DNA of 34,575 nt from Deltaproteobacteria bacterium (GTDB taxonomy: Bacteria > Desulfobacterota > WTBG01 > CAIYCZ01 > CAIRTM01): contig JAJRXD010000009.1 of assembly GCA_024276465.1 (NCBI GenBank), positions 1-34,575 of the forward strand. Reading direction: 5' to 3'. Positions within the stretch are counted from its first letter, which is position 1, and each line of letters opens with the position of its first letter. Positions 2,742-28,395 of this stretch are shown here, one piece after another. The notes beneath the pieces were generated by a model that was not told where the DNA came from, searched no databases, and saw only the letters and a program-made list of their open reading frames with translations. A program made the position numbers and the translations under genes.

Positions 2742-3959
2742 ATGTTATCAAAAAATGATGCTCAACACCCATCAATCCGTTCAAACACTGCTCAGTCGGA
2801 AGTGGCTGATATTTTCCGGCTTTACGGCGAAGATTATCGGAAAAACCATAACATTACCTTTGAACAGTCAAAGGTGATGCGCCAGATCTCAATATGCCGC
2901 ACGACCACCTTAGGCGGACATATTCAACGATGCACTGAATGTGGCTATGAGCAGAATGCTTATAACTCCTGCCGTAATCGCCATTGTCCTAAATGTCAAA
3001 CAATGACCAAAGAAAAATGGCTGAGTGACCGCAAAGCGGAGCTGCTTCCATGCGGTTATTTTCATCTGGTGTTCACCCTGCCTCATGACTTGAACCAGAT
3101 CATTCTATACAACAAGAGGATACTTCTGAATATTTTGTTTCAAGCTGTCAATGAAACACTTCAGACATTTGCACGGGACCCTCAATGGCGTCTTGAAGGA
3201 CAACCGGGATTTATTGCTGTGCTGCATACCTGGTCTCAGACCATTATGGATCACTTTCACCTGCATTGTCTTATTCCTGCTGGGGTGCTGTCTTTCGACA
3301 AAAAGCGCTGGATACCGGCCAGAAAAAAGTTCCTGTTCAAAACCAAATCACTGGCAAAGGCATTTCGAAAACTGTATATACAAAAATTTCTAACAGCATA
3401 CGAAAAAAATCAATTGATTTCCCCGGGCAATACGGCCTGGTCAGACTCTGATGAAAGCCTTGTCCGCCTGATCAATGATCTGAAAAACAAACAATGGATT
3501 GTCTATGCCAAACGCCCCTTTGCAGGTCCTGAGCAGGTGCTTGAATACCTGGGACGCTACACACACAGAGTGGCCATATCAAATCATCGTATTCTGGCTG
3601 TTTCCGATGCAATGGTCACGTTTTCCTACAAGGATCGCAAAGACAACAATAATACAAAGCCTATGACTCTTAAAGCCCGGGAGTTTATAAGGCGATTTCT
3701 TTTGCATGTTCTGCCACAGAGGTTTGTGAAAATCCGCTATTTCGGTTTTATGTTCCACAGGGATAAGCAAAGCAACATCGAGCTGATTCGCAAGCTTGTA
3801 AATGCGGTCACGGTCTTCACTGAAAAGCTCAATGAAACTGTTCAACAGATAATGCTCAGGCTCACTGGTGTAGACATATCCATTTGTCCCAAATGTGGTA
3901 ATGGCCATATGATTGATGTAATGAAAATTCACAGAGTATCAGTTCTGGACTCAACATAA
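2742..3959 (+). CDS. IS91-family transposase (HUH single-strand nuclease)
   Basis: A complete 405-residue rolling-circle transposase. It has an N-terminal zinc-binding region (RCTECGYEQNAYNSCRNRHCPKCQ, here as CTEC, NSCRNRHC and PKCQ), an HUH metal site in FHLHCLIPAG near residue 175, and the catalytic tyrosine region EYLGRYTHRVAISNHR near residue 270. A C-terminal CPKCGNGHM zinc motif follows. Members nick one strand with the tyrosine and move by replicative single-strand transfer, preferring four-base targets. GGAGGG lies upstream of the ATG. No frame damage is visible, so this gene could still be active even though the recombinase ahead of it is broken. Confidence 0.9.
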   Translation: MLSKNDAQHPSIRSNTAQSEVADIFRLYGEDYRKNHNITFEQSKVMRQISICRTTTLGGHIQRCTECGYEQNAYNSCRNRHCPKCQTMTKEKWLSDRKAELLPCGYFHLVFTLPHDLNQIILYNKRILLNILFQAVNETLQTFARDPQWRLEGQPGFIAVLHTWSQTIMDHFHLHCLIPAGVLSFDKKRWIPARKKFLFKTKSLAKAFRKLYIQKFLTAYEKNQLISPGNTAWSDSDESLVRLINDLKNKQWIVYAKRPFAGPEQVLEYLGRYTHRVAISNHRILAVSDAMVTFSYKDRKDNNNTKPMTLKAREFIRRFLLHVLPQRFVKIRYFGFMFHRDKQSNIELIRKLVNAVTVFTEKLNETVQQIMLRLTGVDISICPKCGNGHMIDVMKIHRVSVLDST

Positions 3960-4920: not shown

Positions 4921-7278
4921 ATGCATGAAAGGAGGGTTAAAAAAAACAAACAAGTATCCCTTAAAAAACACTTAAAATTTTTCAAAAGGAGGTCTGAAAG
5001 AGTTAAAAAATCAAACATATTTTATCTCTTCAGTGCAGCATTAATTTTATTCCAACCGCTCAGTGTTTTTAGTCAAACCCTGGATAACAAGGGAACTGAT
5101 TTTATAATGGGTTTCCTTAAAAACTATTCCACTCCAAACATTGAACTGCATCTTACAAGTGATGTTTCAACCAGTGTAACTATCAACTATCCTGTAAACT
5201 CACCTGTATTTACAACAACTGTGGCAGTGAATCCAGGAGCAGTTACTATAGTAGCACTTCCAAACAGTGCAGCTCAGTCCTGGGGTTCAGGATCGGTTGT
5301 GAACAATTGTGTACGTGCTTTTGCAGAAAAGGAATTTGTCTGTTATATGATCAACCGATCTGTTTTTACTTCAGATGCTGCACTTGCACTGCCTGTAGAT
5401 ACCATGAATACCGAGTATATTGCCATGATGTATCACCCTATGTTCGGTGGCAGCGAATATGTCGTAGTTGCTGCGTATAACAATACAACAGTCACAATTA
5501 CCGAGCCAGGCCAGGCCCCCTTTGTTAAAGTCCTGCAGCGTGGTGAGGGGTATTCAAGAAAAAGCAGTACGATAACTGATCTAACAGGAACAATCATAGA
5601 ATCAGACAAGCCTGTTGGCTTTACAAACGGCAATAACTGTACACAGGTTCCTAACGGCACCTGTTATTGCGATCATATTTTTGAGGTTGCCCAGCCTGTT
5701 CAGAGCTGGGGCAGTGATATTTTAGTTGGTAACCTCCCCCTGCGTGTCAAAGGTTCAATTTACCGTATTCTTGCCTCGGCTGATAATACTGAAATTTTTA
5801 TTGATGGTATCAGCCAGGGAATTATCAACCGCGGGGAATTTATTGAAACTGCACAGCTCACAGGCGGTCATGTTATCAGCGGTGATTACCCGATTTTTGT
5901 GACACAGTTCATGACAGGGGTCTGCCTGGCAGGCAATTCTACAGGTGATCCTGCCATGGGCAACATGATCCCGGCAGATCAGTATCTCTCTTACTATACC
6001 TTTTCAACTGTGGGTGGTAGCCAGTTTTCACAGAACTGGCTGAATGTTATTGCTGAGAACAGCGATGTTGGCTCTCTGATGCTTGACGGTACTGCTATTC
6101 CTGCAGCCTCCTTCAGTGCTATTGGGACCAGCGGGTTTTCATATGCCACAGTTCAATTGAGTGATGGTACGCACACGACAACCTCAGACGGTTTTCACGG
6201 TATTACGGTTGAGGGCTACAACGCTGCTGACTCATACATTTATCCAGGCGGAGCTCTGTTTGAGTTTATTAATCCTGTTGGGGATGCAAACTCACCTGAA
6301 TGTGGATGTGATGCTGACGGAATCTGTACAGCATCTGATGACAGGCCAAGTGAGGATATCAACGCTAACGGTGTCCTTGACCCGGGTGAAGATCTTAACA
6401 GCAATGGAATGATAGATGAAGATACTGGTATGTTTTTTGTTACTCTTAACCCATCTGTTAACCTGACGCTGACAGTTGATCCATTTGTACCAGGAGACGG
6501 TAACGTGTCCTACTCTGTTGCGTTGACTGACAGCCGGCTTGATGGTACCGGAGTTATAACTGTTACAGACGGTGCTGGAAATACCTGTTCAACACGGATT
6601 GCACTGTACGGAACAGGCATGTGCACAGATGCGGATGACGATGGATATGCTGTAGAAGGAGGCCAGTGTGGCCCGATAGACTGTAATGATAATGATACGT
6701 CAATTAATCCCGGTGCAGAAGAGATTTGCGGTAATAGAATCGATGAAGATTGCGATAAACAGGCTGATGACTGCATAGACTGTATTGATAGAGATCTTGA
6801 TGGTTATGGCGATGGTAAGGATTGTATTGATGCTGACTGTAATGATAATGATACCTCAATTAATCCTGGAGCATCTGAAGTATGTGATAATCAAATGGAT
6901 GATGACTGTGACGGTCTTGTAGATGATGCAGATCCTGATTGTGTTCAAACATGGGCACAAGAGATCGATTTTCAGGTTATCCCATCAAACGGTAGTGTTA
7001 CTATCAAGTGGACAGCTATTTCTGAAGATGGTGTTATGGGATACAATGTTCTCCGTGCACAGGATAAGTCAGGAACATTTAAACAGATTAATCCTGACAT
7101 TATTTCAGCCAGGGGAAGCATTGAAACTACAGTTGATTATGAATTTTCAGATAGTGATGTTCAAAACGGAAGATTGTACAGGTACAAGCTGGAAGAGCTT
7201 GACGTTACCGGAGCTTCCAAGGAGCATGGTCCGGCAAATGCTGTTCCGAGGTTGATTTATCTGCTGTTAGGTAGATAG
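4921..7278 (+). CDS. Secreted IgGFc-binding-domain protein with MopE-type motifs and fibronectin III domain
   Basis: A 785-residue exported protein. Residues 29-52 are a signal peptide behind a long basic N-region (hydrophobic YLFSAALILFQPLSVFSQ). The body (about 55-455) matches the IgGFc-binding protein N-terminal fold: GTDFIMGF, GFTNGNNC and YYTFSTVGGSQF. An aspartate-rich dockerin-like stretch (DINANGVLDPGEDLNSNG) follows near 479. Two MopE-like metal-binding units (DCNDNDTSINPGAEEICGN and a near copy, about 565-676) come next, and a C-terminal fibronectin type III domain starts at about 678. The parts suggest a calcium- or metal-stabilised surface or secreted adhesin. The ligand is unknown. 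The ribosome binding site at 4921 is poor, although AGGAGG occurs just inside the frame. A strong terminator follows. Confidence 0.75.
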   Translation: MHERRVKKNKQVSLKKHLKFFKRRSERVKKSNIFYLFSAALILFQPLSVFSQTLDNKGTDFIMGFLKNYSTPNIELHLTSDVSTSVTINYPVNSPVFTTTVAVNPGAVTIVALPNSAAQSWGSGSVVNNCVRAFAEKEFVCYMINRSVFTSDAALALPVDTMNTEYIAMMYHPMFGGSEYVVVAAYNNTTVTITEPGQAPFVKVLQRGEGYSRKSSTITDLTGTIIESDKPVGFTNGNNCTQVPNGTCYCDHIFEVAQPVQSWGSDILVGNLPLRVKGSIYRILASADNTEIFIDGISQGIINRGEFIETAQLTGGHVISGDYPIFVTQFMTGVCLAGNSTGDPAMGNMIPADQYLSYYTFSTVGGSQFSQNWLNVIAENSDVGSLMLDGTAIPAASFSAIGTSGFSYATVQLSDGTHTTTSDGFHGITVEGYNAADSYIYPGGALFEFINPVGDANSPECGCDADGICTASDDRPSEDINANGVLDPGEDLNSNGMIDEDTGMFFVTLNPSVNLTLTVDPFVPGDGNVSYSVALTDSRLDGTGVITVTDGAGNTCSTRIALYGTGMCTDADDDGYAVEGGQCGPIDCNDNDTSINPGAEEICGNRIDEDCDKQADDCIDCIDRDLDGYGDGKDCIDADCNDNDTSINPGASEVCDNQMDDDCDGLVDDADPDCVQTWAQEIDFQVIPSNGSVTIKWTAISEDGVMGYNVLRAQDKSGTFKQINPDIISARGSIETTVDYEFSDSDVQNGRLYRYKLEELDVTGASKEHGPANAVPRLIYLLLGR

Positions 7279-9267: not shown

Positions 9268-9384
9268 TTAACAAATATTGTTGTCAACATCTGCTTTTGC
9301 CTTATATAAATCCTCAAGCACTTCATCCATATGCACATTGTCTGTAAAAGGACTCATGGGATAAGATTTGATGGCAATGATCAT
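9268..9384 (-). CDS. Out-of-frame C-terminal segment of the PLP decarboxylase
   Basis: A 38-residue frame starts with an ATG overlapping the decarboxylase stop as ATGA. The product runs MIIAIKSYPMSPFT then DNVHMDEVLEDLYKAKADV. That reads like the final strand and helix of group II decarboxylases (pattern R-hydrophobic-x-MNPxT followed by a D/E-x-LL helix). Just upstream is an A8 run (9389-9396). One extra A, or a -1 slip on A-AAA-AAA, which is in the correct phase, would join the two frames. It is more likely the missing end of the enzyme than an independent peptide. Confidence 0.55.
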   Translation of the reverse strand: MIIAIKSYPMSPFTDNVHMDEVLEDLYKAKADVDNNIC

Positions 9385-10883
9385 TTTCTTTTTTTTGTTG
9401 TTTTGTAGGAATCTGTATAGGAAAGTATTGAAGTTCCTTTTTGTCCAGCCTCAAGGATCATATGTTGCGCAATTTTTTGATTGTATAAATTAACCTTTTC
9501 TGTAAATTCATTATCAGTTTTATCCTGGAGCTCTCTCTCAAACAGCAAACTTCCATCCGCTGCATATTTTGTTTCAGGATAGATGCGAAAATCAGTTACA
9601 AAGGCAGGATTGTGTCGATTTAACAAACTGATCTCTCTACTGTCCTCAATTTTTGTACGCAGATAATCTGATACGGAAAGCAGATGAGCAATCAGCACCT
9701 CATATCCTTCTTTTCCAAGAAGCAGCATGTTTATAAGTGCTTTCTGGGCATAGTTTGGCCTGCTGGATTCAAGAGTAAACATTCCCGGCTGATAACCATT
9801 ACCGTAATAAAGATAGGGCATATCTTTTTTAAATTTTTGCAGAAGAAACAAATCCTCCATGTTTTTTGCTACAATGACGCTGCATAAATATGGAGCCCAC
9901 CCTGTTTTATGAAAATCAATTCCAACAGAATCAGCATATTTTAATTCAGTCATTTTAGAAACAACATGCATAATTTCAAATTGCAGGGGACTTGGAAATC
10001 GTCTGATATTATCATCACCTTTAAACGTAAGATATGGCCACCCTATAACAGCATCGGCATGGACATGGATTTTATATTCCAGCTTCTTTTGTATTCTGTC
10101 ACGCAGTTTTACGATTTCCTTTAAGGGGTCAATTCCAAATGCATCAGTTGTTCCCATGGTTGCAAAAACAGTTCCTATCCTTGCCCCACTTTTTATTGTT
10201 TCCTCCATCTTGTTTTCAAGCTCTGTAATTTCCATAATATTGTCAGTATTTGAAGGAATAACCTTTATATTGTTTAACCCGATTCCTGTCCAGATTGCCG
10301 AGGACTTGATACTGTAGTGCGAAATATCAGAACAGAAGAAGTGAATGCGGTCCCTGATACCGGTATTTTTTGCGTCAGGATCAGCTTTTTCGATACCGAT
10401 ACGCGCTGCATAAAGATTGCAACCCGTTCCGCCAAACGTAAAAACACCGCCTGCCATGGACTTGTCAAACCCTATAAGGTCTGCAAGCATACCTACTGCC
10501 ATAACTTCAGACTGTGCGGCACTCATTCCGTAGTGGTCCCATATTGAATTTTCATTAAACCGCGCTGCAAGTGCTGCAGCAGCTATGGAGATTGATGTTG
10601 GTGGGGGAACGACATTTACCTGAGTTTTAGGGTGTCCCCACAAAGGCACTCCTTCATACAGTTCTGTGATTTGGTCAATAACATCTTTTTCAGAGAGCAT
10701 CTGTTCAGAAAAAACAGCATTTTTAATAAGAGCTTCATAGTCAATTTCTTTTTTTTTACCAATGAAAGTGCCATGTTTCTTGTTCTCAATTTTATTGAGA
10801 AACATTTTTATCAGCTCTAATATTTTTTCTTCTTCTCCTTTGGGCCTGGGAAATAATGTTCGTATATCATCAATTGTGATCAT
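9381..10883 (-). CDS. PLP-dependent amino acid decarboxylase (group II family)
   Basis: A 500-residue fold type I PLP enzyme of the glutamate/aromatic/histidine decarboxylase superfamily. Visible landmarks are the phosphate-binding TFGGTGCNL (149-157), the PLP-stacking His in ISHYSI (189), HVHADAVIG with Asp277 contacting the ring nitrogen, and Schiff-base Lys326 in GIDFHKTG. GAGGAG lies upstream of the ATG. It would release CO2 from an amino acid and give an amine, but the substrate cannot be read from the sequence. It is divergent from a deoxyhypusine/homospermidine synthase-like gene 138 bp away, so a polyamine-related amine is a reasonable guess. The frame ends at an A8 run, and the expected last 38 residues follow in the -1 frame. 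Confidence 0.85.
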   Translation of the reverse strand: MITIDDIRTLFPRPKGEEEKILELIKMFLNKIENKKHGTFIGKKKEIDYEALIKNAVFSEQMLSEKDVIDQITELYEGVPLWGHPKTQVNVVPPPTSISIAAAALAARFNENSIWDHYGMSAAQSEVMAVGMLADLIGFDKSMAGGVFTFGGTGCNLYAARIGIEKADPDAKNTGIRDRIHFFCSDISHYSIKSSAIWTGIGLNNIKVIPSNTDNIMEITELENKMEETIKSGARIGTVFATMGTTDAFGIDPLKEIVKLRDRIQKKLEYKIHVHADAVIGWPYLTFKGDDNIRRFPSPLQFEIMHVVSKMTELKYADSVGIDFHKTGWAPYLCSVIVAKNMEDLFLLQKFKKDMPYLYYGNGYQPGMFTLESSRPNYAQKALINMLLLGKEGYEVLIAHLLSVSDYLRTKIEDSREISLLNRHNPAFVTDFRIYPETKYAADGSLLFERELQDKTDNEFTEKVNLYNQKIAQHMILEAGQKGTSILSYTDSYKTTKKRK

Positions 10884-11021
10884 AAACAGGACTCCTCATT
10901 GATATTTTCCTTTACAAGAAATTAATTATATACAAAAATTGAACTCAGTATTGCAAGGAAGAATATTGATGGCCTGGTAAAATGTCCAACTGTGAACCCT
11001 TGGGTTTAACGGGGATAATGA

Positions 11022-12137
11022 ATGAAAAAACATTTTGATGAACAAATGAAAATAGATCCACTGCCAATTCATGGTTCTATGTCCCTGTCTGAAATGGTTG
11101 ACAAGACATTTCTTGCATATAATTCCGGCAGAATCAGAGAGGCCTGTCAGTTGTTTGACAGTAAAATATGCAGGGAAGGTGTTTTAACAGGGATAGGCCT
11201 TGCCGGTGCGTTGACTCCTGCCGGGCTGGGCATATCATGTATTATTCCTTTAATCAAAAACGGTCTAATTGACTGGATAGTGAGCACAGGCGCGGTTTTG
11301 TACCATGACCTTCATTTCAGCCTTGATAAATCACTGTACCGAGGCTCACCGAATGTTGATGACAGGAGGCTTAAAAAAGATGGAGTGATAAGAATATATG
11401 ATGTGTTATTTGAATATGAAGTTCTTCTCTCAACAGATGTTTTTATCAGAACTGTTTTATCCAGCAAAGAGTTTCAAAAGGAAATGGGCACAGCTGAAAT
11501 CCACAACCTTTTAGGGAAGTTTGCTGCTGAGAGGGAAAAGAAACTGGGATTGGCAGACAGGAGTATACTGTCTGTTGCCTATGAACATGATGTTCCCATA
11601 TATACTTCATCCCCGGGTGACAGCTCAATTGGCATGAATATTTCTGCGCTGGCTCTTAATAATAACAGATTGAGGATTGACACATTGCGCGATGTTAATG
11701 AAACTGCAGCTTTAGTTTATAGTGCAAAAAAGAATGGGCACAGAAGTGCTGTTGTTGTTTTTGGTGGTGGTTCACCAAAAAATTTCATATTGCAGACAGA
11801 ACCGCACATTCAGGAGATACTTGGTTTAAGCGAAGCTGGCCATGATTATTTCATACAGGTTACGGATGCAAGACCGGATACAGGTGGTCTTTCAGGAGCA
11901 ACGCCTGATGAAGCTGTCAGCTGGGGTAAAATAGATCCTGCTGCGCTGCCTGATACTGTTGTAGTTTATGCTGATACCACGATTGTTCTGCCAATACTGA
12001 CTTCATATGTGATATCAAAAAACAGAACAAGGGACCATAAAAGGCTTTTCCGGAAGAGAGATGAAAAAATGTTGTCTATGATAAGAGATTTCAAACATTC
12101 TGCATCTGGCCTCAGGCATGCATCGAAAAAGGATTAA
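11022..12137 (+). CDS. Deoxyhypusine synthase-family protein (likely homospermidine synthase-type)
   Basis: A 371-residue member of the DHS family. The NAD-binding elements STGAVLYHDLHF (88-99) and FGGGSPKNF (247-255) are present, as is the catalytic lysine region SGATPDEAVSWGKI with Lys303 matching the active-site lysine of eukaryotic DHS. Eukaryotic DHS moves an aminobutyl group from spermidine to eIF5A. Bacteria lack eIF5A, and bacterial relatives are thought to transfer it to small amines such as putrescine to give homospermidine. GGGGA precedes the ATG. The gene is divergent from a PLP decarboxylase and convergent with the MFS gene, 18 bp apart. Together with speD and speE elsewhere in the window it points to an active polyamine metabolism. 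Confidence 0.85.
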   Translation: MKKHFDEQMKIDPLPIHGSMSLSEMVDKTFLAYNSGRIREACQLFDSKICREGVLTGIGLAGALTPAGLGISCIIPLIKNGLIDWIVSTGAVLYHDLHFSLDKSLYRGSPNVDDRRLKKDGVIRIYDVLFEYEVLLSTDVFIRTVLSSKEFQKEMGTAEIHNLLGKFAAEREKKLGLADRSILSVAYEHDVPIYTSSPGDSSIGMNISALALNNNRLRIDTLRDVNETAALVYSAKKNGHRSAVVVFGGGSPKNFILQTEPHIQEILGLSEAGHDYFIQVTDARPDTGGLSGATPDEAVSWGKIDPAALPDTVVVYADTTIVLPILTSYVISKNRTRDHKRLFRKRDEKMLSMIRDFKHSASGLRHASKKD

Positions 12138-22818: not shown

Positions 22819-22835
22819 CCCGTTAAAAAAACGGG
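22819..22835 (+). promoter_or_regulatory. Hairpin covering the flgN ribosome binding site
   Basis: CCCGTT (22819-22824) pairs with AACGGG (22830-22835) around an A5 loop. The GGG of the right arm is the flgN Shine-Dalgarno (GGGTGA) eight bases before the ATG at 22844. It could reduce initiation on flgN. It is not a terminator, since no T-run follows. Confidence 0.4.
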
Positions 22836-22843
22836 TGAATAGC

Positions 22844-23350
22844 ATGAAAAAATTGTTGGAAGACCTTTATAAAATTATAATTAAAGAAACCGACCTTTAC
22901 AAAAGCCTTCTTAATGTTCTCCACGAAGAAAATCAAATTATATTAAACTCTTCAGTTGAGAAACTTCATACAAACAACAAAAAGAAGGAAGTTCTTATCC
23001 TCCAGATAAAACTTCTTGATGAAACCTGTATCAGGATACTTGAAAAAATTCATCATGAACTTCCTGGTCAGCAGGTTCTTCCTCCCTCACTGAAACAAAT
23101 AATTGAATCAATGAAAGAACCTGCGGCCAGCCCCATGAAAACGGTTTACTCTAAGCTGCTGTCCATTGCACAGACAGTGAAGGAAATAAATACTGCCAAT
23201 GACAGGCTTATTAAGGGATCCCTCAGGGCTATTAAAAGTTCAATATCTTTTTTGCTGTCCTGTGCCTCAACCGGCAGCCCCTTTTATGAAAATAACGGGC
23301 AGTTGAAGACTGATAATTTTGTGAAGCCTGTGTTGAAGGAGGAGGCATAA
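22844..23350 (+). CDS. flgN: Flagellar export chaperone FlgN
   Basis: 168 residues from the ATG at 22844 (GGGTGA upstream), largely alpha-helical with a coiled-coil pattern: LLEDLYKIIIKETDLYKSLL, HEENQIILNSSVEKLHTNNK, KKEVLILQIKLLDE. Position between flgM and flgK and this helical profile match FlgN, the chaperone that escorts FlgK and FlgL to the export gate. The sequence is poorly conserved in the family, so context carries much of the call. Confidence 0.8.
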   Translation: MKKLLEDLYKIIIKETDLYKSLLNVLHEENQIILNSSVEKLHTNNKKKEVLILQIKLLDETCIRILEKIHHELPGQQVLPPSLKQIIESMKEPAASPMKTVYSKLLSIAQTVKEINTANDRLIKGSLRAIKSSISFLLSCASTGSPFYENNGQLKTDNFVKPVLKEEA

Positions 23351-23352
23351 TA

Positions 23353-26300
23353 ATGGGAATAGGTCTGTTTGGTGCACTGCAGATTGGGAAAGAAGGTTTG
23401 TTTACGCAACAGTCAGCCATAGGCGTAACCGGACATAACATTGCCAATGTGAATACCCCTGGTTTTTCCCGTCAAAAGCCTGTTATTGAAACCATGCCGG
23501 CCCAAAAGATCGGTTTGATCTATTTTGGCAGAGGAGCCCACCTTGGAAATATTACGAAAAGCTATGATAAATTTTTAAATAATTCCATTGCATTGGAGAC
23601 AAGTATCCTCGGAAAATGGGAGACGCAGGAAGCATATATGTCACAGACCGAAACCATTTTCAATGAGTCGAGTGAGCTGGGCCTTAATTTTATGCTTAAT
23701 AAATTCTGGGATGCGTGGAACGATCTTGCTGCCCAGCCCGAGGGAATACCTGAAAGAGCTGTTTTACAAAGTACAGGGCAGAGCATTGCCAAAAACCTCC
23801 AAAACATGTCACTCAATCTTGAAACTGTCAGGACTGATGCCAACAACAGGTTACTGAATACTGTTTCTCAGATTAATCAGCTGTCAGAAGAAATTGCTTA
23901 TTTGAACGGACAGGTTCTTTCAAGCTCAAGCCAGAGCGCAAATGCAAATGACATAACTGACAAACGAACACTGAGAGTAGAAGAGCTTTCAAAACTGATT
24001 GATACTACTGTCCTTGAAGCTGCAGACGGACAAATTACTGTTCTTACAAGCTCCGGAAGAGCGCTGGTGTCGGAAAATCTTTCATGGCAGCTTACAGCTA
24101 AAGCCGATGCTGACAGGGATGGATTTTATACAATTTATCATCTGGATAATGGAGTTGAAACAGATATAACTGACAGGATCAAAAGCGGAAGCCTGAAGGG
24201 GATCCTTGAGGTACGTGATGAAATTATTCCAAAATACCTGAGTAATCTTGACCTGCTTGCATCATCTCTTGTCACTGAAGTTAACAAAATACATTATCAG
24301 GGATATGGCCTTGACGGGACAACAGAAAACTATTTTTTCAGGCAGGTCACTGTTTTAAGTGAGGCAAACCGGAAAAATGATGGAGGAGGAAAGATTTATG
24401 ATTCTCAGGTTACTGATCCTCTTAAACTTGTAAACAGTGATTTTGAGCTGAAATTCGTAAGTTCCTCTCCTCAGACACCAAAATATGAAATTTATGACAC
24501 ACGTAATGAGAAATACATATTCCGTATAGATGCAGGCAATTCAACAGTTGTTTTTGATGATGGCGGTGGTGATGTAATTGTTTCACTTGCACATGGCACA
24601 TATACAGCCTCCGAACTTGCTGCTGAGCTTGAAACACAACTTGATTCATATGCTTCAACAGATCAGGACTATACAGTTACTTATAATGCAACAGACAGGA
24701 AATTTAAAATAACAAATAAAGGCACAGCTTCAATAGATATCAAGTGGGAAAATTCACTAACTACAGCTGCCGGCATACTTGGATTTAACAGTTCAAATAA
24801 AGCTGCTATCGCCAGCAACGGATCTGTGGAAAGTGATTCAACAGCAGGCACATACACTTATGCTGCTCAGCTTTTTGAAATTAAAAACGGAGCAAATGAT
24901 GCAATTATTTTCAGGGATGATGGTACAGCGACCGACAGAACCGCAACGCTTGACTCGGGAGTATATACTTCTGATCAGCTTGCTGCTGAAATCAAGTCTC
25001 AGCTTGAAGCAAAAAGCGGAGGATCTCAAACATATACTGTTTCCTACAGTAAGAGTTCTCAGAAATTCACCATTACAAATGATGCTGCTAATGCTAACAG
25101 CCTTAATCTCTTATGGTCAACCTCTGATGCAGCATCAACATTAGGTTTTAGTGCTGTTGACAGTGGTTTGTTTGTTCCAGGGGCATCTGATGAGAGCGAC
25201 AATGCAAGATATACAGAACGTATTTTTCAAATAACCGGCGGCAACAGAGAAATTAATTTTAATGACAGCGGTATTGGCGGAGATGTCACGGCATCTCTTG
25301 CACTGGGAGCATACACGGGAGAGGAGCTTGCAGCTGAGATTGAAAAACAGCTTGAGTCTACTTCCGGATCCTCCGGCCAGGATTATATTGTAACCTTTGA
25401 TGCAAAAAACGGCGCATTTACAATTGTTAATGCAGACAGCAATCAGCATGATCTTAATCTCTTATGGTCAACCTCAAACGCAGCATCAACATTAGGTTTT
25501 GATGCTGTTGACAGCGGTGCATTTGGAACAAATCTTTATGATGTAAGTGATAATGTGGCTGGTACTGTTACAACTTATGATACTATTGGTTTTTATGGTA
25601 TCTCAGTAAAGCTTACCGATGACGGGGCACTTCCTCAAAATCGTGATGTTTTTTCAATAAGCACAGTAAAGAATGCTGCCAAAACCATTGAAATGGATCT
25701 GGTTACTGCTACTGACCCTGAAAAAATAGCAGCAGCAAAGGACATATTTGAAGTTACTGGTTTGAACAACACGATTGTTTTTGATGATGATGGTGATCTG
25801 ACTGACGGTGTTAATTATAAAGTTGTTCTTCAAAACGGATCATACACACCAGATGAACTTGCAGATGAAATAGAACTTCAGCTCGAGCAGAATGGGTCCG
25901 GCCAGTCCTATTCGGTGAGATATGACAGCACAACAAATAAATTTACTGTTTCAAGCAACCCATCAAACGGGAATGAGCTTTTCCTGTTGTGGGAGAATGT
26001 TGATACAACAGCAGATTTTCTCCTTGGATTTAATAATAAAATATTTACAATCACAGCAGGTTCAAATGATACTATAAATTTTGATGACGGGACCGGCGGC
26101 GGGGTTGAGGCTGCGACCCTGACCTCAGGATCATACACAGGTGAAGAATTGGCAGAGGAAATTAAAAGCGCCCTTGAATCTGCCGGAGCATCAGGCTTTG
26201 AAGTTTCCGTAGCATACAACAGTACGGACAGACAATTTACAATAACGGCTGATAGCTCAGCCGGAGGTAATATTGATCTAAACTGGTCAACTTCAAATGC

Positions 26301-26757
26301 AGCCTCAACCATAGGATTTAGTGCAGTTGACACAACTGGAATTGCTGTTGGGTCTTCTGACAGCAGCGATTTTTCACCTGGAAGAATATCTGCAAGCTCA
26401 TCCTCCACGAGTGAGTTTGCCACAGGCGGAACAGAGGCTGGTGATAACAGAAATGCGCTTAAACTGGCAGACTTGAGGGATTTAACGGTTATAAGCAAAA
26501 GCACTCTTTCTATTAATACATTCTACAGTATTATTGTTGGAGAGGTTGGGACTGACGTAGATGAAACCAACAAAAACATAACTCACCAGAGTTTTGTCAT
26601 GGAGCAGTATGAGCAGAGGAGAGAAGCAATTTCAGGTGTTTCCATAGATGAAGAAATGGTTAACCTGATAAAGTATCAACAGTCATTTTCAGCCAGTGCA
26701 AAATTTATAACCACCCTTGATCAAATGCTGAGCACATTGCTGAGCATAAAGTCGTAA
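23353..26757 (+). CDS. flgK: Flagellar hook-associated protein 1 FlgK, enlarged by five repeat modules
   Basis: 1134 residues, against about 450-650 usual. The N-terminal 300 residues are ordinary FlgK (ALQIGKEGLFTQQSAIGVTG, HNIANVNTPGFSRQ, LNFMLNKFWDAWNDLAAQPE) and so is the end (GVSIDEEMVNLIKYQQSFSA, then the terminal helix). Between them are five related modules of about 97 residues, at roughly 387-480, 506-603, 624-721, 798-894 and 897-994. Each has IF-x-I...I-x-FDD, then YT-x-x-ELA-x-EI-x-x-QLE, Y-V-Y-x-x-x-x-KFTI and LLWSTS-AASTLGF. They should form extra outward-facing domains at the hook-filament junction. The gene starts 2 bp after flgN, with GAAGGAGG upstream. Confidence 0.92.
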   Translation: MGIGLFGALQIGKEGLFTQQSAIGVTGHNIANVNTPGFSRQKPVIETMPAQKIGLIYFGRGAHLGNITKSYDKFLNNSIALETSILGKWETQEAYMSQTETIFNESSELGLNFMLNKFWDAWNDLAAQPEGIPERAVLQSTGQSIAKNLQNMSLNLETVRTDANNRLLNTVSQINQLSEEIAYLNGQVLSSSSQSANANDITDKRTLRVEELSKLIDTTVLEAADGQITVLTSSGRALVSENLSWQLTAKADADRDGFYTIYHLDNGVETDITDRIKSGSLKGILEVRDEIIPKYLSNLDLLASSLVTEVNKIHYQGYGLDGTTENYFFRQVTVLSEANRKNDGGGKIYDSQVTDPLKLVNSDFELKFVSSSPQTPKYEIYDTRNEKYIFRIDAGNSTVVFDDGGGDVIVSLAHGTYTASELAAELETQLDSYASTDQDYTVTYNATDRKFKITNKGTASIDIKWENSLTTAAGILGFNSSNKAAIASNGSVESDSTAGTYTYAAQLFEIKNGANDAIIFRDDGTATDRTATLDSGVYTSDQLAAEIKSQLEAKSGGSQTYTVSYSKSSQKFTITNDAANANSLNLLWSTSDAASTLGFSAVDSGLFVPGASDESDNARYTERIFQITGGNREINFNDSGIGGDVTASLALGAYTGEELAAEIEKQLESTSGSSGQDYIVTFDAKNGAFTIVNADSNQHDLNLLWSTSNAASTLGFDAVDSGAFGTNLYDVSDNVAGTVTTYDTIGFYGISVKLTDDGALPQNRDVFSISTVKNAAKTIEMDLVTATDPEKIAAAKDIFEVTGLNNTIVFDDDGDLTDGVNYKVVLQNGSYTPDELADEIELQLEQNGSGQSYSVRYDSTTNKFTVSSNPSNGNELFLLWENVDTTADFLLGFNNKIFTITAGSNDTINFDDGTGGGVEAATLTSGSYTGEELAEEIKSALESAGASGFEVSVAYNSTDRQFTITADSSAGGNIDLNWSTSNAASTIGFSAVDTTGIAVGSSDSSDFSPGRISASSSSTSEFATGGTEAGDNRNALKLADLRDLTVISKSTLSINTFYSIIVGEVGTDVDETNKNITHQSFVMEQYEQRREAISGVSIDEEMVNLIKYQQSFSASAKFITTLDQMLSTLLSIKS
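24511..26334 (+). repeat. Five tandem domain repeats inside flgK
   Basis: The coding region for modules 1-5. Modules 2 and 3 also share DNA: 25102-25167 and 25453-25518 agree at 60 of 66 positions, far above the other module pairs, which indicates fairly recent duplication or gene conversion between them. A non-repeat spacer (about residues 722-797) separates modules 3 and 4; it contains TIGFYGISVKL and EMDLVTATDPEKIAAAKD. Confidence 0.85.
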
Positions 26758-26785: not shown

Positions 26786-27670
26786 ATGCGTGTAACCTTA
26801 AATATGATATATGGACAGTCTGTCTATAATCTGAACAACCAGTATGAGCAGTTTTTTAAGCAAAACAAAATAGTATCTTCCGGAAAAAGAATAAACAGTC
26901 CGTCAGATGATCCTGTTGACATGGTTAAGATTTTAGGGTTAAGATCTCTTGGTAAATCTCTTGATCAATATAAAAAGAACATTGACAATGGCACAACATG
27001 GTTGAGATATACGGAATCAGCTTTGTCAAGCGCTGAAAAAATATTTGTTGATGCCAAAGTTCTTGCCGAGCAGATGGCAACAGGAACTTACAGCAAGGAA
27101 CAGCGGCAATTGCTTTCTGTTCAGGCTGAGCAGCTGTTTGAGCAGCTAATGCAGGTTGGTAATACCAAGATCGTTGATAAATACCTTTTTTCAGGCTATA
27201 AGACTGATACGAAAACATTTACAAAAGATACTAATTTCAATATTGAGTATCATGGAGATGATAATAACATCAAAGTAAGCATCAGTCAGAGTACACGTGT
27301 TGCGATTAATACCACGGGACAGAGAGCATTTTTAGATAAGACTAATGTCTTTGATGTTTTGAGAGGCCTGCATGCAGCTCTTCAGAATGATGATCAGGAA
27401 GCTGTACAGAATGCATTACCACAGATAAACGATGCTTTAAAACAAATTGTTAAAGAACGGTCCATTGTAGGAACTTCAATCAATCAAATGGAATCAGCTG
27501 AAATTATGAATGAGAGTTTTGATTTCAAGACCGAAGAGCTGCTTTCAGACACTGAAGATGCTGACATATTGAATGCTGTAACCGAATTAGAAGAGCGTGA
27601 GCTGGTTTTTCAGGCAACTTTGAAGAGTACGGCAATGATTACCGGGCTTTCACTTCTGAACTATATATAA
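26786..27670 (+). CDS. flgL: Flagellar hook-associated protein 3 FlgL
   Basis: 294 residues with the flagellin-like N-terminus ([20 protein letters not shown]) and C-terminus ([20 protein letters not shown]), which pack into the D0/D1 core. The length is that of FlgL (about 300). FlgL joins FlgK to the flagellin filament. AAGGAGG precedes the ATG. In contrast to FlgK it has no inserted modules. Confidence 0.93.
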
Positions 27671-27693: not shown

Positions 27694-27927
27694 TTGCTTG
27701 TTCTTACAAGGAAATTAGGAGAAAAGATTCAAATCGGGGATGATATAAGCATTCTGATTATGGACATTACAGGAAGGCAGGTCAGGTTAGGCATTGATGC
27801 ACCGTCTGATATTAAAGTTCACAGGGAAGAAATATATCAAAGGATTAAGGAAGAAAACATAAATGCATCAAATATTGATGTTTCAGAAGTTGACAAAATT
27901 AAAAACCTGTTTGAAAAAAATGACTGA
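27694..27927 (+). CDS. csrA: Carbon storage regulator CsrA (TTG start)
   Basis: 77 residues from a TTG start, giving (M)[19 protein letters not shown] then [21 protein letters not shown], the core of the CsrA RNA-binding dimer including the R-E-E-I-Y region. It is longer than the E. coli protein (61) by a variable tail. An AAGGGG lies upstream. CsrA binds GGA motifs in mRNA leaders, and in flagellates with FliW it represses flagellin translation. It is paired with fliW, its antagonist, 12 bp downstream. Confidence 0.93.
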
Positions 27928-27939
27928 GGAGGTTTTTTG

Positions 27940-28395
27940 TTGAAAATAAAAACTACGCGCTTTGGCGAATTAGATGTAAGTGAATCCCGCATTATTACTT
28001 TCTCTGAAGATATACTGGGTTTTTCAGGATACAGGAAATATGTTATTCTTGAACATAGTAAAAACAGTATTTTAAAATGGCTTCAGTCAGTGGAAAATGA
28101 ATCCCTTGCTTTTGTTCTGACAGATCCGCTTAACACTGTGCCGGACTACAAGGTCGAGATAGACAAGAAGGATGCGGAGACAATAAAGCTTTCATCTCTT
28201 GATGATGCGGTGGTGCTTTGTATTGTCAGTATCAGCAAAGAATGCAAATCCGTTACAGCTAATCTGCTTGGTCCCATAATAATAAATCCTGAAAAGATGC
28301 TTGCAAAACAGGTGGTTCTTTTTAACAGCCCTTACAGCATAAAGCACAATTTAATGGAATCATTTCAGAAAAAATGTGCGGGTCAGAACCCATAG
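27940..28395 (+). CDS. fliW: Flagellar assembly factor FliW (TTG start)
   Basis: 151 residues. Two adjacent TTG codons (27937 and 27940) are possible starts; 27940 is preferred because GAGGAGG (27926-27932) is then seven bases away. Conserved features include ITFSEDILGFSGYRKYVILE, SLAFVLTDP, ANLLGPIIINPEKMLAKQVV and the final YSIKHNL. FliW binds CsrA and is displaced by flagellin, which links flagellin supply to translation. It is the last gene of the operon, and its stop touches the convergent amrS-like gene. Confidence 0.93.
   Translation: MKIKTTRFGELDVSESRIITFSEDILGFSGYRKYVILEHSKNSILKWLQSVENESLAFVLTDPLNTVPDYKVEIDKKDAETIKLSSLDDAVVLCIVSISKECKSVTANLLGPIIINPEKMLAKQVVLFNSPYSIKHNLMESFQKKCAGQNP

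Follow-up and report, generated by a model that had tools for sequence, protein, structure and literature searches.

Why a hook-filament junction protein should reach about twice its usual length, and whether the repeated modules inside it have exchanged DNA, are the questions raised by the flgK gene of the window (the whole stretch of 34,575 nt analyzed here).

A doubled FlgK with modules inserted at D2

The flgK ORF is one intact frame of 1134 aa (Table 1). Its identity is given by the TIGR02492 equivalog (E 4e-100, 336 bits against a cut-off of 171) together with three Pfam domains, and by the gene order flgN-flgK-flgL expected for FlgK (HAP1). The weaker Pfam matches in the same protein (YvbJ NTF2, collagen-binding and ribosomal S11) are all under their own cut-offs and were dismissed. 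The original prediction of a FlgK of about double the normal size holds, the median being 575 aa among the matches listed (at least 146 FlgK open frames from the Thermodesulfobacteriota sample). The operon is an ordinary flagellar one, with FlgF/FlgG-type proteins, FlgA, FlgH, a rod-binding protein, FlgI, FlgN, FlgK, FlgL, a csrA-like ORF and FliW. Elsewhere, the window contains an IS91-type transposase (2742-3959, +), a protein of 785 aa that combines an IgGFc_binding domain with MopE metal-binding motifs (4921-7278, +), and a Pyridoxal-dependent decarboxylase (-) adjoining a deoxyhypusine synthase family protein (+) at 9381-12137.

Between positions 24505 and 26349, flgK encodes five modules that are related to one another, each about 100 residues long. 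They were delimited with a profile built from the five FlgK copies themselves, each of which scores from 132 to 154 bits. In the alignment with module-free FlgK proteins, D0/D1 are conserved and the insertions are at D2, the architecture of a FlgK with extra outer domains. There are two insertions, M1-M3 in a D2 loop after the strand ending in YEIYDTRN and M4-M5 after the remainder of D2, which starts with FYGISVKL and ends with DPEKIAAA. The order is the first part of D2, M1-M3, the D2 remainder, M4-M5 and the C-terminal helices. Five modules of about 97 residues had been predicted as extra domains on the junction protein; the count and the extra domains stand, but a picture of all five in one row is incomplete, since the D2 remainder splits the modules 3+2.

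Extra outer domains of FlgK are known, and FlgK D2 contacts D3/D4 of FlgE (PMC5691160). The FlgK of Burkholderia pseudomallei (D2-D3, with a D3 fold like that of D2) and the 702-aa FlgK of Caulobacter crescentus likewise have extra domains at D2 of a standard FlgK (PMC5691160). Compared by architecture, the FlgK of the window differs from both in its five copies at two sites and in being about twice the usual size.

Table 1. Features of the flgK region, in positions of the window.
Feature	Position	Strand	Evidence
flgN, FlgK/FlgL export chaperone	22835..23350	+	PF05130 E 2e-24
flgK, hook-filament junction protein (HAP1)	23353..26757	+	TIGR02492, FlgK_D1, Flg_bb_rod, Flg_bbr_C
FlgK D1 helical domain, aa 96-329	23638..24339	+	FlgK_D1 (PF22638) E 3e-59
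FlgK D2, first part (DPLKLVNSDFELKFV...YEIYDTRN)	24409..24510	+	Aligns with D2 of module-free G014
Module M1, insertion 1	24505..24816	+	146 bits; groups with M1 of G003 and G002
Module M2, insertion 1	24862..25182	+	152 bits; groups with M2 of G003
Exchange tract, M2 copy	25102..25174	+	88% identical over 73 nt; codon test; permutation test
Module M3, insertion 1	25210..25524	+	154 bits; groups with M3 of G003 and its equivalent in G002
Exchange tract, M3 copy, probable recipient	25453..25525	+	88% over 73 nt; codon and permutation tests; comparison with G003
FlgK D2 remainder (YDTIGFYGISVKL...AAKTIEMDL...DPEKIAAA), between insertions	25570..25740	+	Aligns with module-free G014 FlgK
Module M4, insertion 2	25732..26034	+	132 bits; groups with M4 of G003 and G002
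Module M5, insertion 2	26029..26349	+	147 bits
C-terminal D1/D0 part of FlgK	26443..26754	+	Flg_bbr_C aa 1093-1131; alignment
flgL, 294 aa, no module	26786..27670	+	TIGR02550 E 5e-75; no match of the module profile in own-genome search
csrA-like ORF, between FlgL and FliW	27694-27927		Named by eye from translated sequence
FliW	27937-28395		

DNA exchange between M2 and M3

A 66-bp block shared by M2 and M3 at 60 of 66 bases had been taken for DNA exchange, and this was confirmed. When M2 and M3 are aligned by codon, the best stretch of 66 nt has exactly 60 identities, a value reached by none of 100,000 codon shuffles (maximum 59). Over the 24 codons of the tract, 63 of 72 nt agree, and the same codon is used at 18 of the 20 shared degenerate residues, where 7.2 were expected (p < 1e-5). 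The rest of M2 and M3 is 50% identical, with the same codon at 14 of 32 such residues (13.6 expected). Protein conservation alone cannot explain the tract, since codon agreement is far above expectation within it and random elsewhere in the two modules. No other pair of modules exceeded 74% over 66 nt within the FlgK of the window, of G003 and of G002 (two relatives described below), within the FlgE of the window's genome, or between this FlgE and the FlgK of the window. The tract is a real DNA exchange, a short gene conversion in the lineage of the window. Its direction is hinted at by the protein block encoded by the M3 tract, which is closer to M2 (14 of 24 residues) than to M3 of G003 (9 of 24); M2 may thus have been the donor and M3 the recipient.

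As it is directly repeated within a single gene, the tract could also be the remnant of a partial unequal crossing-over or slippage. We consider this improbable, because the 5' part of each module has stayed distinct and groups with the corresponding module of G003, and because only a short and internal tract is shared, as predicted by gene conversion. A single crossing-over would remove or add one complete repeat. Misassembly is unlikely as judged from the assembled sequence, since a collapsed repeat would be identical and the tract is only 88% so.

Modules in relatives and in other flagellar genes

The nearest relatives compared are from other genera, not from the same species or genus, two of them (G003 and G002) being Thermodesulfobacteriota metagenome assemblies. 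G003, another genus in the family of the window, has a FlgK of 1128 aa that is 53% identical. All five modules recur in it, split 3+2 as in the window, and it has no exchange tract. In a tree of the modules, copies from the same position group together, for M1, M3 and M4 from three genera (window, G003 and G002) and for M2 from two (window and G003). This grouping and the shared layout in G003 indicate that the modules are old. In the more distant genus G002, FlgK has 1371 aa and seven modules, the extra ones being located between M1 and M2 and inside M4, which is split. The nested module is complete and lies between the helix and the next strand of its host (contig C124, L058, FlgK aa 935-1149). 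Three genomes from another family (G021, G057 and G092) have one FlgK module each, and six other genomes from the family of the window have no FlgK_D1 match among the matches listed.

As judged from these sequence comparisons, the module set is old and inherited by position, and its copy number changed between genera. The proposal that copy number may still change is not supported, since number and layout of the modules agree between G003 and the window, with no tract in G003, M1-M4 group by position and extra copies occur only in G002.

Searching for the module in other proteins, we found it in 31 of the 395 Thermodesulfobacteriota genomes sampled. Where the open frame was read, the genes (identified by terminal motifs, and for some also by Pfam) encode FlgE, FlgK, FlgL or FliD, with the exception of one phage-like gene; the module is not specific to FlgK. 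This phage-like gene, an ORF of 403 aa with a single module (G029, contig C82, L117:1851-3059), lies outside the flagellar genes and has phage-like neighbors. In the genome of the window itself, the profile matched only FlgK (five copies) and the hook protein FlgE (four), the latter having 923 aa with more diverged modules between its D1 and FlgE_D2. In G092 (contig C499, L122:3361-8349), the open frame of FlgL, ended by the contig edge, spans at least 1663 aa, has eight module matches and adjoins a 685-aa FlgK with one module.

Among the matches listed, the lengths of FlgK and FlgE correlate over 90 genomes (rho 0.46). Kinship was handled by family medians alone, and the correlation is modest: rho 0.38 over 39 families (p 0.017) and 0.33 (p 0.04) without the family of the window, again among the matches listed. 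Modules are present in FlgK but not in FlgE in family f17, and in FlgE but not in FlgK in families f46, f47 and f62, so matching between both proteins is not obligatory.

Fold, remote relatives and probable role

The predicted secondary structure of the module is bbbb-a-bbb, an alpha/beta arrangement. Prediction of a single module, M3, gave a model with pLDDT 79 and pTM 0.74 that weakly resembles PBCV-1 P1, the flagellin FliC of Pseudomonas aeruginosa and D2-D3 of FliD, none at E <= 0.001, and no FlgK structure is among its best 50 fold matches. Against BFVD, the best matches are minor capsid proteins of giant viruses, two of them at E < 0.001 (best E 1e-4, TM up to 0.79). A profile of 34 modules, compared with PDB sequences, matched the penton of EhV-201 (8rbs, E 0.0012; PMC11006232) and the tail sheath gp31 of phage E217 (E 0.003). 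The likeness to these minor capsid and penton proteins of algal and other giant viruses (PBCV-1, EhV-201) is limited to one domain.

DUF3383 (PF11863), the family of this sheath, is matched by 11 of the 34 modules. With hhalign, the module profile aligns over the whole module with a profile of six sheaths (probability 90.8%), corresponding to residues 103-206 of gp31 (PDB 8env). In the sheath this is one domain rather than a repeat, and the sequence identity is about 11%. With HMMER, 5 of 6 divergent sheaths were matched, the sixth and distant one remaining at E 0.16, and all other E217 frames gave E > 1. The FlgE of the window's genome matches PF11863 with 31.5 bits (E 1e-7), significant yet under the cut-off of 34.9, and is not filed as a member; a reversed FlgE, used as composition control, had no Pfam match. 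By tblastn, M2-M3 had no match in phages and plasmids, and the FlgE modules and the phage-like gene gave nothing of weight, so the sheath link is drawn from profiles only. We suggest that the modules and tail-sheath or virion proteins may share a common origin, which is likely enough to be tested. A single surface domain common to FlgE, FlgK, FlgL and FliD, phage tail sheaths and giant-virus vertex or minor capsid proteins, which would have moved between virions and flagella, is a tentative idea that we hold to be rather doubtful.

The Flagellin_IN domain (PF07196) of FliD and flagellins shares weak similarity around the helix. It was matched by no module of the FlgK of the window and by 1 of the 34 modules, from a relative (E 6e-4). 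In the FliD of the window's genome, residues 145-173 show weak similarity around the helix (10.6 bits).

For the role of the modules, we favor as the probable account that old insertions of outer domains enlarge the outer region of FlgK and make hook and junction thicker in concert, short gene conversions occurring now and then. A small alpha/beta domain of about 100 aa would have entered FlgK at two sites around D2 and multiplied by duplication. Hook and FlgK ring would project the modules outward, which could result in a thicker or stiffer hook and junction with more subunit contacts. In the lineage of the window, a short gene conversion has homogenized M2 and M3 at their 3' ends. We propose that junction and hook are matched in size because they touch each other. 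A model of the whole FlgK from three sequences has pLDDT 38 and is unusable as a structure, only its secondary structure being read, so we infer the surface exposure of the modules.

A variable surface region, in which repeats often exchange or change in number for adhesion or for escape from phages or grazers, would agree with the recent-looking M2/M3 tract and with the seven copies of G002, one of them nested inside M4. It would not agree with the 3+2 layout kept in another genus and the orthology by position, nor with the lack of a second strong tract in the FlgK proteins of the window and of both relatives (G003 and G002), in the FlgE of the window's genome or between its FlgK and FlgE (next best 74%). 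Moreover, FlgK forms a small ring, a poorer target for antigenic variation than flagellin (here a 312-aa open frame). We regard this explanation as quite improbable, and phase or antigenic variation is most likely not what the modules serve. Somewhat less improbable, though still unlikely, is that the modules bind a ligand in adhesion, the structural effect being secondary. In predicted fold they also resemble exposed proteins of large viruses (vertex and minor capsid proteins), but no adhesin or lectin domain was found in FlgK and its modules at the Pfam cut-off, and modules are also present in the hook and, in other genomes, in the FliD cap. Adhesion, sheath contact and phage escape, all raised in the original prediction, are therefore without specific support. 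That modules are found along the whole axial structure (FlgE, FlgL and FliD) is easier to reconcile with a structural outer domain than with a variable target on the surface.

Outer domains of axial flagellar proteins are mostly regarded as inserts peculiar to a lineage. Their insertion is already known; the conversion tract found here is real, and the profile link to virion proteins is unexpected. With a single domain family in FlgE, FlgK, FlgL and FliD undergoing duplication, nesting and conversion, the stepwise growth of hook and junction becomes traceable. The sheath link suggests a common stock of domains decorating tubular surfaces, which is testable by structure.

The 865-aa FlgE of Campylobacter jejuni is another axial protein with a large outer insertion; its D3/D4, when added to the hook of Salmonella, can alter the hook diameter (PMC5069557). 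Those domains are unique, whereas the 923-aa FlgE of the window's genome shares a repeated module with FlgK. FlgL of C. jejuni has a bulky D2 (PMC12221982). Stepwise enlargement of an axial protein by domain duplication is also seen in giant flagellins, whose DE regions are duplicated (PMC6248924), but here the enlargement is in FlgK and FlgE and not in flagellin.
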